A stretch of 22,966 nucleotides of DNA from a virus. A program made the position numbers and the translations under genes. Positions 3,223 to 22,966 of this stretch are shown one piece after another; positions within the stretch are counted from its first letter, which is position 1; every line of letters starts with the position of its first letter. A model generated the notes under the pieces. It ran no database searches. It had not been told where the DNA came from and was given only the letters and a program-made list of their open reading frames with translations. Where the stretch lies: IMG/VR virus record IMGVR_UViG_3300020603_000144, positions 1 to 22,966 of that record; one strand, given 5' to 3'.

Positions 3223-4824
3223 TTATCTTTTCTTTTTAAGGAACATTTTTTGATCACAGGAGAAAATAGACTCATTTGCTCTCCATTTAACATAAGTATC
3301 TACATCTCCAATATTAAAGGGCTTTGGAATGCCATTGATGACAGTTGTCGGTTTAGAGGCCAATGTTCCTACAGAAACTATTGCATCATCTTCAAAAGTC
3401 CATATCATATCTTGTAAAGTGGTGGCATCTACAGCTGTTACGACTAGTCCTGTTGGATTTTCTACTATTCCTAACCATCCTATAGTGTCATTTGCTACTA
3501 CATCATACCATCCAAACCAATTATCGTTTATAAGATCTAGACCAGTAGTAGCATTACTATCATCAGTAAAAGTGAAAGGATTAACTACTGGGGAAAGATT
3601 AGCAGGGTTGCCTCTATTGGCATCATCGGTGTTTTTCTGGTTAAAATCGGGAATATCAGTTGTAGTGTTTTTTGTACTAAGGGCAAACCTTTGTTTAGAA
3701 GTAGCTATTTTAAATTTCTTTGTGTTACAAACCACTCTAACGTAAGGATTTCCTCTTCTCATATCAATTGTATGATCTACAATACCATATTTTACTATAA
3801 ATTTACATTGTGAATCATTAAAGCGTTCGAAAACAACATCATGTAAAGTAACTCCTAGGTCACTATTTGAAGCAATTGGTTTAATAGTTCCTGTGGATTC
3901 CCATGCGATTCCATCCCATCCAAAGATTTCTACTCCGGGAGAGGTATTTATTTCTGCTCTAATTAATCCATTTTCTATTACTCTCTCTCCAACGAATTCA
4001 TGATCAGAAGAATACACTCTTGTCCAATCTGCTTCATCTGCTTCATTTTCTGTGTCCCATACTTTGATGTTACCATTTAAACGATTATCTAGATCGACAT
4101 CATATGAAATGAAAATGTTAGGATAGAATATCCATACAAAATCACTTTTCAAAGTTTTTAAAGAAGTTTTATCTGAAATTCCTTTAATAAATAATTTAAC
4201 TTCAGCTACATTAGCAGTAATAGTTCCATTGAAAATCCTTGTTTTATCATCCATTCCTGTCATTTCTCTGTAATATAATTTTGTTACACCATCTTTAAGA
4301 TAATCTAATTGAAATATTACTTCTGTCTTTGTAGCAGATATATTCTGAGTTGCTAAAGTTGTTTCAACGTCATCTACTTCTTCAATTAATTTTAAAATGT
4401 TATTGCTTGCGCCGGCTGAAAGTTCTATGATAATCTTATCACTAGTTGCTAAATCTTCGAAAACATATCGTAGTTTTTCTGTTCCAGAAGATAAAGATGC
4501 ATCTTGTAATTCCATATGACCGTATACAGTTATTCCTGGATAGAGATAACTAAAAGTAGCATATGTACCGATTTTTGTAACTTCAGTACCATCAACAGAT
4601 TCTAATTTAACTTCCAGTTTACCAGAAGCAACATCAACAGAATCATTTGTAATGTTTCCTGAAGAAGTAATGTTTAACTCTCCTCCCATTGTAACATTAT
4701 ATTGACTACCTAAAAGATAGTTAATAATTGGAATACTTCCATCTTGAGAGGTTCTATCATAGACCTTTGCTAAAGGACTGAATTTTTCAGCTGCTACTGG
4801 AGGAGATATTGAAAATCTAGCCAT
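3223..4824 (-). CDS. Large tail protein, possible lectin-like N-terminal domain (533 aa)
   Basis: No sequence family is certain. Residues about 40-235 alternate beta strands in a way that resembles concanavalin/LamG-type sandwiches (ITNDSVDVASGKLEVKLES, KIIIELSAGASNNILKLIEE, TKLYYREMTG, DFVWIFYPNIFISYDVD). Residues about 250-510 form a second beta-rich region (ENGLIRAEINTSPGVEIFGW, NPYVRVVCNTKKFKIAT, LINDNWFGWYDVVAND). The C-terminus is basic (FLKKKR). The gene sits between the candidate distal tail protein and smaller tail-tip proteins, with spacing of one to three bases. That fits a tail-tip or side-fibre protein which might contact host glycans. The lectin-like assignment is inference from strand pattern only. 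Confidence 0.65.
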   Translation of the reverse strand: MARFSISPPVAAEKFSPLAKVYDRTSQDGSIPIINYLLGSQYNVTMGGELNITSSGNITNDSVDVASGKLEVKLESVDGTEVTKIGTYATFSYLYPGITVYGHMELQDASLSSGTEKLRYVFEDLATSDKIIIELSAGASNNILKLIEEVDDVETTLATQNISATKTEVIFQLDYLKDGVTKLYYREMTGMDDKTRIFNGTITANVAEVKLFIKGISDKTSLKTLKSDFVWIFYPNIFISYDVDLDNRLNGNIKVWDTENEADEADWTRVYSSDHEFVGERVIENGLIRAEINTSPGVEIFGWDGIAWESTGTIKPIASNSDLGVTLHDVVFERFNDSQCKFIVKYGIVDHTIDMRRGNPYVRVVCNTKKFKIATSKQRFALSTKNTTTDIPDFNQKNTDDANRGNPANLSPVVNPFTFTDDSNATTGLDLINDNWFGWYDVVANDTIGWLGIVENPTGLVVTAVDATTLQDMIWTFEDDAIVSVGTLASKPTTVINGIPKPFNIGDVDTYVKWRANESIFSCDQKMFLKKKR

Positions 4825-4825
4825 G

Positions 4826-5359
4826 TTAAGTTAATAAAAAGTCAAAGAAGAAATCCAATAAAGGATCTCCAAAGGATACATTACCTGCGATGCCATTAAG
4901 ACTACCAAATCCAACACCATCTTCATCTAATTCCAAATCTCCCGAATCACCATCTTGTAAATCTCCTTTATTTGCAAATTGTATTAGTTCTATGTTATAA
5001 TCAAATGCTACCGTATCTGATCCATTATGGTTAACATATTGAGGTCCATCTACACCAGATTCTGCACTATCTAAGGCATATGTTCCACTATAAATAATAT
5101 CAAAATCTGGATCAGTTGTTGCAAATATTACTGTTGGTTGGTCAGGGTTCTTACAAAGTTGTTTCAAGGCATAAGCTGCAGATAATGGCCAAATCTTTCC
5201 AGTTATTTGTAGTACAAAGGTTTCAGGACCTGTATCTATAACAAAAGGGAAGTTCTTTAATACTTTATCTACTTGCTGTTTCCTGGCAACTTTCCATTTA
5301 ATAGATTCTGGAGGGATTGGAAAAGTTATACCATGTAATTGCCATGTATAATTAGGCAT
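4826..5359 (-). CDS. Candidate distal tail / baseplate hub protein (177 aa)
   Basis: The gene directly follows the tape measure gene (one base between them), where siphoviruses usually encode the distal tail protein. Residues 1-125 look like a compact beta domain (ITFPIPPESIKWKVARK, VLKNFPFVIDTGPETFVLQI, TGKIWPLSAAYALKQL, VAFDYNIELIQFANKGD). This is the kind of tube-like fold used by Dit and related hub proteins. Residues 128-160 are acidic and Gly-rich. The end is unusually hydrophobic (LLDFFFDFLLT), perhaps a docking tail. Assignment rests on position and strand pattern, so a different baseplate subunit is possible. Confidence 0.6.
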   Translation of the reverse strand: MPNYTWQLHGITFPIPPESIKWKVARKQQVDKVLKNFPFVIDTGPETFVLQITGKIWPLSAAYALKQLCKNPDQPTVIFATTDPDFDIIYSGTYALDSAESGVDGPQYVNHNGSDTVAFDYNIELIQFANKGDLQDGDSGDLELDEDGVGFGSLNGIAGNVSFGDPLLDFFFDFLLT

Positions 5360-12745: not shown

Positions 12746-13291
12746 CTAAAGGTATTGTACTCTTCCTATCGTCAATCTGGTGAGCACTTTTGTCGCACCA
12801 GCGGCGGAAGTTGTACCTACAGCCACGTCTTCCTCTGCAATTCCTACTATTCTTGCCAGTTCTTTAAATCTAGCTTCTAGTTCGTTACTAGCATCTGTAA
12901 CTGTAGTGTTTGGAATTGTAGTTTTAGAGTATTTGTTAACTTTACCACCCGCGGCATCTACATAGAGAGGATCTCCTCTAGTAATTGCACTGTTGTTGAC
13001 CTTGACTAATAGTCTAGCCCAACCATCTGCAAACACAGGGATTCCTTTAGTACCTATTTGGGTACCTGTAAGATCCGTAGTTGATGGGAAATTCAAATCG
13101 TGAGGATCACGAGTTGATCTATAGTTAACACACTTTGGTAGATCGGTTGATCCGCATTTATCAACTTTGACAACTGAAGATTCTGATACGTAAGTTAGCA
13201 CATAACCACCATCGTCAAGGGAAGTTGCATTTTTAAGTCGCATATTCCACATTTCGCCTGGTTCACGTGCTCTACCTCCGCCGTCAGTCAT
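12746..13291 (-). CDS. Capsid decoration / stabilising protein (181 aa)
   Basis: The gene lies between scaffold and major capsid genes, where head decoration proteins are usually found. The protein resembles DUF2190-like decoration proteins: VFADGWARLLVKVNNSAITR, GDPLYVDAAGGKVNKYSK, ARIVGIAEEDVAVG and a closing TRLTIGRVQYL. The start is glycine-rich (MTDGGGRAREPGEMWNMRLK). Two Cys (KCGSTDLPKC) may form a small disulphide or metal loop. Expected role: trimer or pentamer binding on the expanded capsid surface. A head-fibre protein is an alternative. Confidence 0.65.
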   Translation of the reverse strand: MTDGGGRAREPGEMWNMRLKNATSLDDGGYVLTYVSESSVVKVDKCGSTDLPKCVNYRSTRDPHDLNFPSTTDLTGTQIGTKGIPVFADGWARLLVKVNNSAITRGDPLYVDAAGGKVNKYSKTTIPNTTVTDASNELEARFKELARIVGIAEEDVAVGTTSAAGATKVLTRLTIGRVQYL

Positions 13292-20557: not shown

Positions 20558-20788
20558 CTATTTCCTGTATTTATAGAGCCAACCTTTTCCACAAGGACAA
20601 GATTTTCTCATAACTTCATTATCCCTGTAAAGTGTTAAGATGTTATCATACATTGTTCTTACACCTAGTTTGGTTCTATGGATTAATTCTTGACATGAAA
20701 ACCAATCATCCTGATGTTTTGTAAAGAAATCCTGTAGAACCTTCCTATTTGGAGGAAGCCATTCATCAGTGTTTGGATTTTTAGACAT
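20558..20788 (-). CDS. Small winged-helix DNA-binding protein (76 aa)
   Basis: The layout is helix (RKVLQDFFTKHQDDW), helix (SCQELIHRTK), recognition helix (GVRTMYDNILTLYRDN) and a two-strand wing (EVMRKSCPCGKGWLYKYRK), i.e. a compact winged helix. C64 and C66 lie in the wing. It overlaps the 3' end of the exonuclease gene by 8 bases. It resembles in outline the plus-strand 86-residue protein at 22628-22888, which also ends in a wing with YKLK. Likely a transcription regulator, perhaps of the divergent control region, which is inference. Confidence 0.7.
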   Translation of the reverse strand: MSKNPNTDEWLPPNRKVLQDFFTKHQDDWFSCQELIHRTKLGVRTMYDNILTLYRDNEVMRKSCPCGKGWLYKYRK

Positions 20789-21576: not shown

Positions 21577-21605
21577 AAAAAAAAATATAGCCTTAAAGGG
21601 CTATA
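21577..21605 (-). terminator. Hairpin plus T-run terminator of the fibre gene
   Basis: The minus strand has TATAGCC (21605-21599), loop CTTTAA, GGCTATA (21592-21586), then nine T (21585-21577). The 7-base stem is perfect and the TAA stop of the fibre gene lies in the loop. The T-run fits termination in both archaea and bacteria. Confidence 0.8.
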
Positions 21606-22132
21606 ACTTTGTATTTTACCGCTGCACCAGCAGTTATTTTCACATCAGTACCATCGTGGGTACCTTCTGCGAGATCATAACTATTGCCATCTCCTTCAGT
21701 AATTATAGGAATTACCAAAGAAGGTGTTCTACCTAAGCTATGGGCAATACTTTGTTCAGCCCCGTTACCTGTTTGCTCGGTGCTTTTAAAGAAGCTAATT
21801 TTTCCACTTTGAATAGTAGAAGAAGTAAATTTAGCATTCGTGATAGTATTGTCTCTGATCTTTGCGGTTTCAACTGCATCATCAGCTAGTTTTGCTACTG
21901 TTACGGCGTCGCTTGCTATTTTTGCCGTCGTTACGGAAGAAGCTGCTAATTTGTCTGTAGAAACTGCAAGGTCAGCTATCTTTGCCGTGGTAACAGCGCT
22001 ATCTGTGATCTTGGCGGTTGTAACTGCGTTTGATGCAATATCAGCTGCAACAATCGTAGCGTCAACGATGTCTGAAGATTCTACTTCGACATCTGTGCCA
22101 AGTGCTCTGTCAATATGTTTTCCAGAAGTCAT
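21593..22132 (-). CDS. Fibre protein with exact 10-residue repeats (179 aa)
   Basis: From ATG 22132 the protein has residues 21-110 built of about nine 10-residue units of the type KIADxAVTTA, with Lys at 41, 51, 61, 71, 81, 91, 101 and 111. This strict period suggests a trimeric fibre shaft or beta-solenoid. The C-terminal domain (about 117-179) includes TEQTGNGAEQSIAHSLGRTP and ends VKITAGAAVKYKVIAL, a type common at phage fibre tips. An in-frame TTG at 22141 is a less likely start. The gene stands apart from the tail module, as a single unit with its own terminator, so it may be separately regulated. Receptor binding is likely but the receptor is unknown. Confidence 0.8.
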   Translation of the reverse strand: MTSGKHIDRALGTDVEVESSDIVDATIVAADIASNAVTTAKITDSAVTTAKIADLAVSTDKLAASSVTTAKIASDAVTVAKLADDAVETAKIRDNTITNAKFTSSTIQSGKISFFKSTEQTGNGAEQSIAHSLGRTPSLVIPIITEGDGNSYDLAEGTHDGTDVKITAGAAVKYKVIAL

Positions 22133-22337
22133 AAAAATCAATATATTTTATTTCTCCTGAAATTTTAATGACCATGTCACCAAGAGACCGTTTCTATAGG
22201 TTAATTTGCTTTAAAGGTTATTAGTAGATTAACTATCTAATTGCTCCATCAATTGCAACAAGTCTTTAATTGTCATTATCAAAACTTTGTAACTTTTTCT
22301 CTACCCAAAAGGGTTTTGAAAAATGCTTATACATGGA

Positions 22338-22359
22338 TTTTTGGGTAATTTCCCAAAAA
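22338..22359. repeat. Perfect inverted repeat TTTTTGGG / CCCAAAAA
   Basis: Arms of 8 bases (22338-22345 and 22352-22359) flank TAATTT. A related but smaller palindrome, CAAAA-GGG-TTTTG, lies at 22306-22318. The dyads could be operators for a winged-helix dimer or weak terminators. The right arm is followed by C rather than T runs, so an operator seems the better reading. Confidence 0.55.
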
Positions 22360-22400
22360 CCCCCTTCCCGCCGCGGAATTGGCGCGCTAATATTTATATA

Positions 22401-22440
22401 TTATATATATAAAGCTTTCGTCTTATATATAAAGCTTTTG
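22401..22440. repeat. Tandem 20-base direct repeat with TATA box and AAAGCTTT palindrome
   Basis: Two adjacent 20-base units, 22401-22420 and 22421-22440, agree at 17 of 20 positions and share TATATATAAAGCTTT minus its first bases. Each has a TATA-like core joined to the palindrome AAAGCTTT. A degenerate reverse-oriented relative (CTTTATATATAAG) is at 22451-22463. They could be doubled promoters with a built-in operator, or iterons. Confidence 0.65.
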
Positions 22441-22558
22441 GTTATAAAATCTTTATATATAAGTACGATTTATATATTATAAAAAGAATATATAAGATGT
22501 AATAAAAAATAAAATTCGCGCGCGTTTTTATTAAGCGCGTAAATTTTAAATTTTATTA

Positions 22559-22608
22559 TAGATCGCTAGTAAGCTAGCGCAACAGCTAGCTCGCGATGAA
22601 ACGATCTA
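22559..22608. repeat. Nested inverted repeats with GCTAG motifs before the plus-strand gene
   Basis: Outer arms TAGATCG (22559-22565) and CGATCTA (22602-22608) enclose the hairpin CGCTAG-TAAG-CTAGCG (22564-22579), the palindrome AGCTAGCT (22584-22591) and TCGCGA (22591-22596). GCTAG occurs three times. The block lies 20-70 bases before the ATG at 22628 and could be an operator, a structured 5' leader or a cruciform at an origin. Confidence 0.6.
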
Positions 22609-22627
22609 CATAGGAAAACACACAGAC

Positions 22628-22888
22628 ATGAACACAAAGAAATCTGCAGTGTCCCAGTTCAGCGACATAGGTGTAGCTGAGATACCTGCAACAGACGTCT
22701 CCTTGACGAGCAAGATCGAGGAAGTGTTCCGAACATATCCAGACAAGTTCTTCACACAAAGAAACTTCGTCTGCGAAGGCTTCGGCAAACGCAATCCTCA
22801 GGTGCATCAATCGCTGATGCGCTTGCTAGAAAAAGGAACTATCTTCCGAGAAGGCAGCCGCAAGAAGTACTTCTACAAACTAAAGTAG
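22628..22888 (+). CDS. Winged-helix-type DNA-binding protein, opposite strand (86 aa)
   Basis: This is the only gene on the plus strand. Residues 1-25 are a flexible arm. Residues 26-86 give helix (LTSKIEEVFRTYPDKF), helix (TQRNFVCEGF), recognition helix (KRNPQVHQSLMRLLEKG) and wing (TIFREGSRKKYFYKLK), a winged-helix outline. Its base composition is visibly richer in G+C (about 45% in the first 60 bases by my count) and it prefers AAG, TTC and other C/G-ending codons, unlike the leftward genes. It may be an early regulator acting on the adjacent repeats, perhaps acquired from another source or host. No ribosome site is evident, though a TATA-like ATTATAG lies at about 22556-22561. Confidence 0.7.
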   Translation: MNTKKSAVSQFSDIGVAEIPATDVSLTSKIEEVFRTYPDKFFTQRNFVCEGFGKRNPQVHQSLMRLLEKGTIFREGSRKKYFYKLK

Positions 22889-22937
22889 AAGAACTTTCAG
22901 CGACTACGTAGTCGGAAATCCCCTATTTTTTTTTTTT
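22865..22937 (+). terminator. Two hairpins and T12 after the plus-strand gene
   Basis: Arms 22865-22876 and 22885-22896 pair over 12 bases with one mismatch around the loop AAACTAAA; the TAG stop lies within the right arm. The perfect palindrome CGACTACGTAGTCG follows at 22901-22914, then a run of 12 T (22926-22937). Together these form a strong rightward terminator, although the spacing of the T-run from the second stem is about 11 bases. Confidence 0.7.
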
Positions 22938-22966
22938 CATTTTTCACCTGGATTTTTTATCAAAGG

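Follow-up and report, generated by a model that had tools for sequence, protein, structure and literature searches.

A divergent control region with an unusual degree of structure, in what is probably an archaeal tailed virus, is indeed present at positions 22142-22627, and its interpretation as a promoter region is well supported. We consider it likely to be a divergent archaeal-type promoter and regulatory region, located at the junction of the late (leftward) and early (rightward) gene modules. The first-pass annotation had proposed a candidate replication origin and/or a divergent switch. The switch is supported by the opposite orientation of the flanking modules, TATA boxes facing both ways and the conservation of a promoter core in a related virus, whereas an origin is a possibility with which the data are compatible.

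Genome map and probable host

The window (the whole stretch of 22,966 nucleotides analysed here, positions 1-22,966 of IMG/VR record IMGVR_UViG_3300020603_000144) belongs to an uncultured tailed virus also represented by four further IMG/VR contigs, with 99.9-100% identity. The longest contig of this virus, G001 (70,958 bp), contains the whole window in nearly identical form, and another, G003, spans both G001 ends and supplies the missing 197 bp, closing the map at 71,155 bp. The minus strand of the window carries terminase, portal, tape-measure and tail-fibre genes, and a tRNA search of the window identified none. Leftward from the control region, the minus strand holds the structural module along with the tail-fibre gene; rightward, on the plus strand, are a winged-helix gene, a probable T-run terminator, a repeat array, the gene for a 229-aa protein and the early/replication module. 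The early and structural modules converge at about 44.6 kb of G001. The ORFs, the skew and the closed 71.2-kb map place the divergence point at 22142-22627, and this layout confirms the annotated position of the region between a plus-strand winged-helix gene and the leftward genes.

This virus is probably a tailed virus infecting archaea. An archaeal host is the best prediction from gene content, given the PolB protein (closest in tblastn to those of haloarchaeal tailed viruses, with 24% identity), the pairing of a CobS-like AAA ATPase with a CobT-like vWA protein, the presence of GTP cyclohydrolase and QueC, and an ERCC4/XPF-type nuclease; a HerA-like ATPase is also encoded. Boxes of the TTTAAATA/TTTATATA type are found shortly 5' of the start codons of several other genes of the virus, the placement of the TTTAAATA-type boxes being that of leaderless archaeal promoters. 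The virus is similar to the marthaviruses of marine and lake Thaumarchaeota, described in a study of Lake Baikal (PMC7678222): it is a tailed virus with a CobS-like gene and a plausible archaeal host, the likeness being one of description, not of sequence. A terminase query of GTDB found no relative. The CobS-like and CobT-like genes adjoin each other (L018:8673-11302). The GTP cyclohydrolase I and QueC genes (L020:151-1923) suggest a preQ0-type pathway and, possibly, DNA modification. Methyltransferase-like, acyltransferase-like (hexapeptide) and NeuB-family genes lie in a row at L018:17635-19645 (only the NeuB match was tested), and may possibly serve sugar or glycan modification.

Sequence elements and conservation of the control region

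The features of the region and its flanks are as follows (a dot indicates no strand).

21593..22141, minus strand: first leftward gene, tail-fibre-like (PHROG tail fibre match, E 4e-19)
22142..22389, minus strand: leader region predicted for the leftward transcript, some 250 nt long (ORF list, repeats, RNA fold)
22404..22438, minus strand: two direct TATATATAAAGCTTT copies, 20 bp apart (BRE-like and TATA)
22422..22463, dot: inverted repeat ranking first in the genome (arms of 18 nt with 94% complementarity, loop of 6 nt)
22468..22494, plus strand: promoter element with core TTTATATATTATAAA at 22469-22483, predicted to drive the winged-helix gene
22499..22559, plus strand: hairpin A, with GCGCGC, second strongest inverted repeat of the genome
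22560..22607, plus strand: hairpin B, TAGATCG...GCTAGC-GCAACA-GCTAGC...CGATCTA
22628..22888, plus strand: 86-aa winged-helix protein (structure model, paralogue alignment)
22895..22938, plus strand: probable terminator, a CGACTACGTAGTCG palindrome followed by a T12 run (sequence)

All the elements previously listed for this region (AT tracts, a tandem repeat, GCGCGC, inverted repeats and a threefold GCTAG) are present, and the claim that symmetric elements are denser here than elsewhere was borne out. By inverted-repeat peaks, the region ranked first of 291 windows of 486 bp, with five peaks versus a mean of 0.75 in dinucleotide shuffles (0 of 200 shuffles reached five). The two best ungapped inverted repeats of the whole genome (loops of 3-15 nt) both lie in the region, with scores of 15.5 and 14.0, the next in the genome scoring 10.5. 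The GCGCGC sites at 22382 and 22518 are the only two in the 71-kb genome. GCTAG occurs at 22565, 22573 and 22585 (at least three copies were present in 0.4% of region shuffles), and this threefold block is accounted for by hairpin B. The GC content of 22390-22560 is 17%, and the lowest-GC 120-bp segment of the genome, at 13%, is also located in the region (next lowest, 18%); 13% GC over 120 bp is in keeping with the AT-rich unwinding element of a replication origin. As single-stranded DNA, 22380-22627 folds far better than shuffles (z = -4.7). An Rfam search of the window gave no match at the gathering threshold.

On the leftward side, the tail-fibre-like protein contains repeated 'TTAKI' motifs, and its gene starts at TTG 22141 or ATG 22132, with AGGAG upstream. 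The predicted leader contains an inverted repeat, TTTTTGGG-CCCAAAAA, at 22335-22362, has an RNA fold z of -2.9 and includes no convincing ORF in the ORF list. The tandem repeat annotated as 20 bases long is indeed a TATA-coupled unit with 20-bp spacing, but its copies (TATATATAAAGCTTT at 22404-22418 and 22424-22438) are identical in only 15 of 20 bases. The minus strand of each copy reads AAAGC-TTTATATA (positions 22413 and 22433), and AAGCTTTATA is absent from the 71-kb genome outside 22404..22438. The pair constitutes BRE/TATA-like predicted promoters aimed at the structural genes. Plus-strand TTTATATA is found at 22452 and 22469, such that TATA/BRE-type elements face both ways, and the strongest inverted repeat itself holds TATA boxes for both directions. 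The reading as a two-way promoter is also backed by the near repetition of the 22468..22494 element 5' of the 229-aa early gene (96% over 27 bp, G001:2191-2217). With transcription start positions predicted from TATA spacing, hairpin A is predicted to lie in the leader of the winged-helix mRNA, and the fold of this predicted leader (z = -4.8) also favours the promoter reading.

Relatives were sought in IMG/VR with terminase, 229-aa, CobS and winged-helix queries, which returned mainly the same virus; a major capsid protein (MCP) query yielded two useful relatives, G013 (54,982 bp) and G014 (31,755 bp), with an MCP 65% identical to that of this virus. Relatives found by PolB (22-25% identity) were dropped, as they gave no terminase match. 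Gene order in G013 and G014 is largely kept, in reverse orientation, and G013 proteins are mostly 30-65% identical to those of this virus, with a winged-helix homologue 30% identical to the 86-aa protein. The 15-mer TTTATATATTATAAA has a single copy both in this genome (expected number, 0.002) and in G013 (expected number, 0.001), in each case upstream of the winged-helix homologue. Three features of G013 argue against the promoter reading: its winged-helix gene is located not at the divergence point but some 4 kb away; only about 38 bases separate the beginning of the TATA element from the start of this gene, which has no long hairpin leader; and its AAGCTTTATA box faces the early side, whereas that of this virus faces the late side. 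G013 does not retain the minus-strand promoters and palindromes at the corresponding place, and neither a GTAGA array (described below) nor a comparable inverted repeat was found in G013, G014 or G015, all three of which are incomplete contigs. On present data, the promoter core is conserved and the palindromes are specific to this virus.

The model of the 86-aa protein built from a paralogue alignment (mean pLDDT 76.5) has AlphaFold helices followed by a two-strand wing. Its top PDB matches are of the MarR/MepR type, with a best E value of 2.5e-3, so that the likely assignment is to the winged-helix fold class rather than to a particular family. The paralogue alignment shows the 86-aa protein to be one of six or more small winged-helix-like proteins of this virus. 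The winged-helix-like set maps to 22628-22888 and 20558-20788 in the window, L018:12040-12387 and 12827-13093, and L019:2718-3008, 4467-4757 and 5056-5331. Several of its members share an N-terminal 'DIG'-type motif, also present in the 229-aa protein, the structure model of which had a pLDDT of 32.

These elements suggest the following model. Host TBP and TFB would bind the TATA/BRE boxes on both strands; the two minus-strand boxes 20 bp apart (22404-22438) would drive the structural genes, and the conserved box at 22469-22483 the winged-helix regulator gene. The overlapping inverted repeats are the probable target of the winged-helix protein, and perhaps of its paralogues; such binding would switch between the two directions and control its own gene. 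The two leader hairpins would probably add control after initiation, through attenuation, RNA stability or access to the start site.

The GTAGA array and alternative interpretations

Just beyond the window, in the overlapping contigs, a feature more striking than the control region itself separates the winged-helix gene from that of the 229-aa protein. Some 74 degenerate direct repeats, each 20-21 bp long, extend over 1.5 kb of the plus strand (L005:5789-7250, corresponding to G001:217-1678 and to about 23416-24877 in window numbering), some 0.85 kb from the AT-rich core. Spacings are mostly 20 bp (43) or 21 bp (22), and nearly all units carry GTAGA, a few having GGAGA, the rest of the unit having diverged. 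The array has no convincing ORF and is apparently noncoding; a coding repeat was rejected, as the mixture of 20- and 21-bp periods disrupts the reading frame and there is no long ORF. A pattern search of IMG/VR retrieved the same virus and one short unrelated low-complexity match (L022), and a search of GTDB found nothing comparable among 100 stretches: their longest chain of exact GTAGA cores was 12, versus 29 here, and those inspected were mostly near-identical satellites, not diverged units with a conserved core. A centromere function was dropped because none of the proteins scanned was recognisable as a partition protein. The GC-rich stretch flanking the array resembles related repeat sequence and displays no excess folding (z = -0.2). 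Contig ends at L005:5339-5572 fall in a GC-rich TGCCC repeat with a 9-bp period, G001 restarting 198 bp further on. At this edge of the array, the minus strand of L005:5310-5420 has a short reading frame with collagen-like G-X-Y repeats, possibly coincidental.

The control region and the adjacent array may together form a replication origin, a possibility that we hold tentatively and that is compatible with the promoter reading, as both could be true. The 17%-GC inverted-repeat core would be the unwinding element, and the array past the winged-helix gene an iteron-like field for an initiator, possibly a winged-helix protein. The genome's lowest-GC 120 bp and strongest inverted repeats, the adjoining direct repeats with their almost invariant core and the virus's own PolB are consistent with this view. 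The GC-skew analysis proposed for detecting an origin placed the cumulative minimum at 22948, close to the terminator, and the purine-skew minimum at 22454, but this is also where the genes change direction; G-C skew and A-T skew both follow gene direction, so skew is fully confounded with transcription and cannot separate it from replication here. No initiator gene was recognised among the proteins scanned, and the lack of an array or comparable inverted repeat in G013 also counts against an origin, as far as that incomplete contig extends.

It is rather unlikely that the hairpins are mainly RNA elements that give the winged-helix gene an attenuator or terminator-like leader, the DNA palindromes having no role. 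The predicted leader (22498-22640) does fold into a pair of adjacent hairpins, which follow the predicted promoter and precede the ATG (-38.8 kcal/mol, z = -4.8). However, the strongest inverted repeat (22422-22463) is part of the promoter sequence and precedes the predicted start, which bars it from acting in this leader RNA, and the hairpin leader is absent in G013. A packaging site or physical genome end is very improbable: the window, G001 and G002 all end within 36 bp past the winged-helix gene (L005:5339, 5375 and 5373), but G003 reads straight through, the G001 ends do not overlap, with 197 bp missing between them, and the break falls in a GC-rich repeat, making an assembly break the simpler cause. 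Finally, a low-complexity AT-rich spacer with no function is scarcely credible, for although short palindromes arise readily in AT-rich sequence, the repeat content exceeds that of every dinucleotide shuffle and a relative with such divergent proteins (mostly 30-65% identical) has kept the promoter core.

Comparison with known systems and implications

The proposal that the winged-helix protein controls its own region is based on its position and on known archaeal viral switches, such as F55 and C68 (PMC5569661). In SSV1 (Fuselloviridae), the ribbon-helix-helix protein F55 controls early promoters through ATAGATAG sites (PMC5569661). As in that system, a small virus-encoded DNA-binding protein is associated here with tandem repeats in or beside BRE/TATA promoters, and is proposed to regulate its own gene as well as early genes; unlike F55, the protein is a winged-helix one with predicted binding, to other sites, in an unrelated virus. 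The gene for C68, a regulator of a Sulfolobus plasmid-virus, faces a divergent promoter, as does the virus-encoded regulator gene here, and the C68 site overlaps the BRE (PMC5569661). The protein and motif differ from those of C68 (motif TATG(C/GG)TTTTC), and long hairpins and an array are present here, none being described for the C68 divergent promoter in the passage cited. Iteron plasmid origins (RK2, F, P1 and R6K) have 2-7 direct repeats, 17-22 bp in length, close to an AT-rich unwinding element, and their initiators contain winged-helix domains (PMC4980987). The virus resembles them in repeat length (20-21 bp), proximity to an AT-rich element and possession of a winged-helix protein; it differs in having about 74 units rather than 2-7, located about 0.85 kb from the AT-rich core, and no recognised Rep homologue.

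The array, in which a near-invariant 5-bp core recurs at intervals of two helical turns while the genome is otherwise compact, stands out by its copy number and calls for a binding protein. It is conceivable, if improbable, that the control region, the winged-helix gene and the array of about 74 GTAGA units form one composite replication/maintenance locus. If so, a small winged-helix protein would bind both a giant iteron-like field and a palindromic AT-rich core, and replication or segregation would be coupled to the early/late switch. Regulation and replication start sites are little mapped in uncultured archaeal tailed viruses, and this locus, which combines a small winged-helix protein with one conserved promoter core and a defined set of palindromes, provides a compact and testable model.
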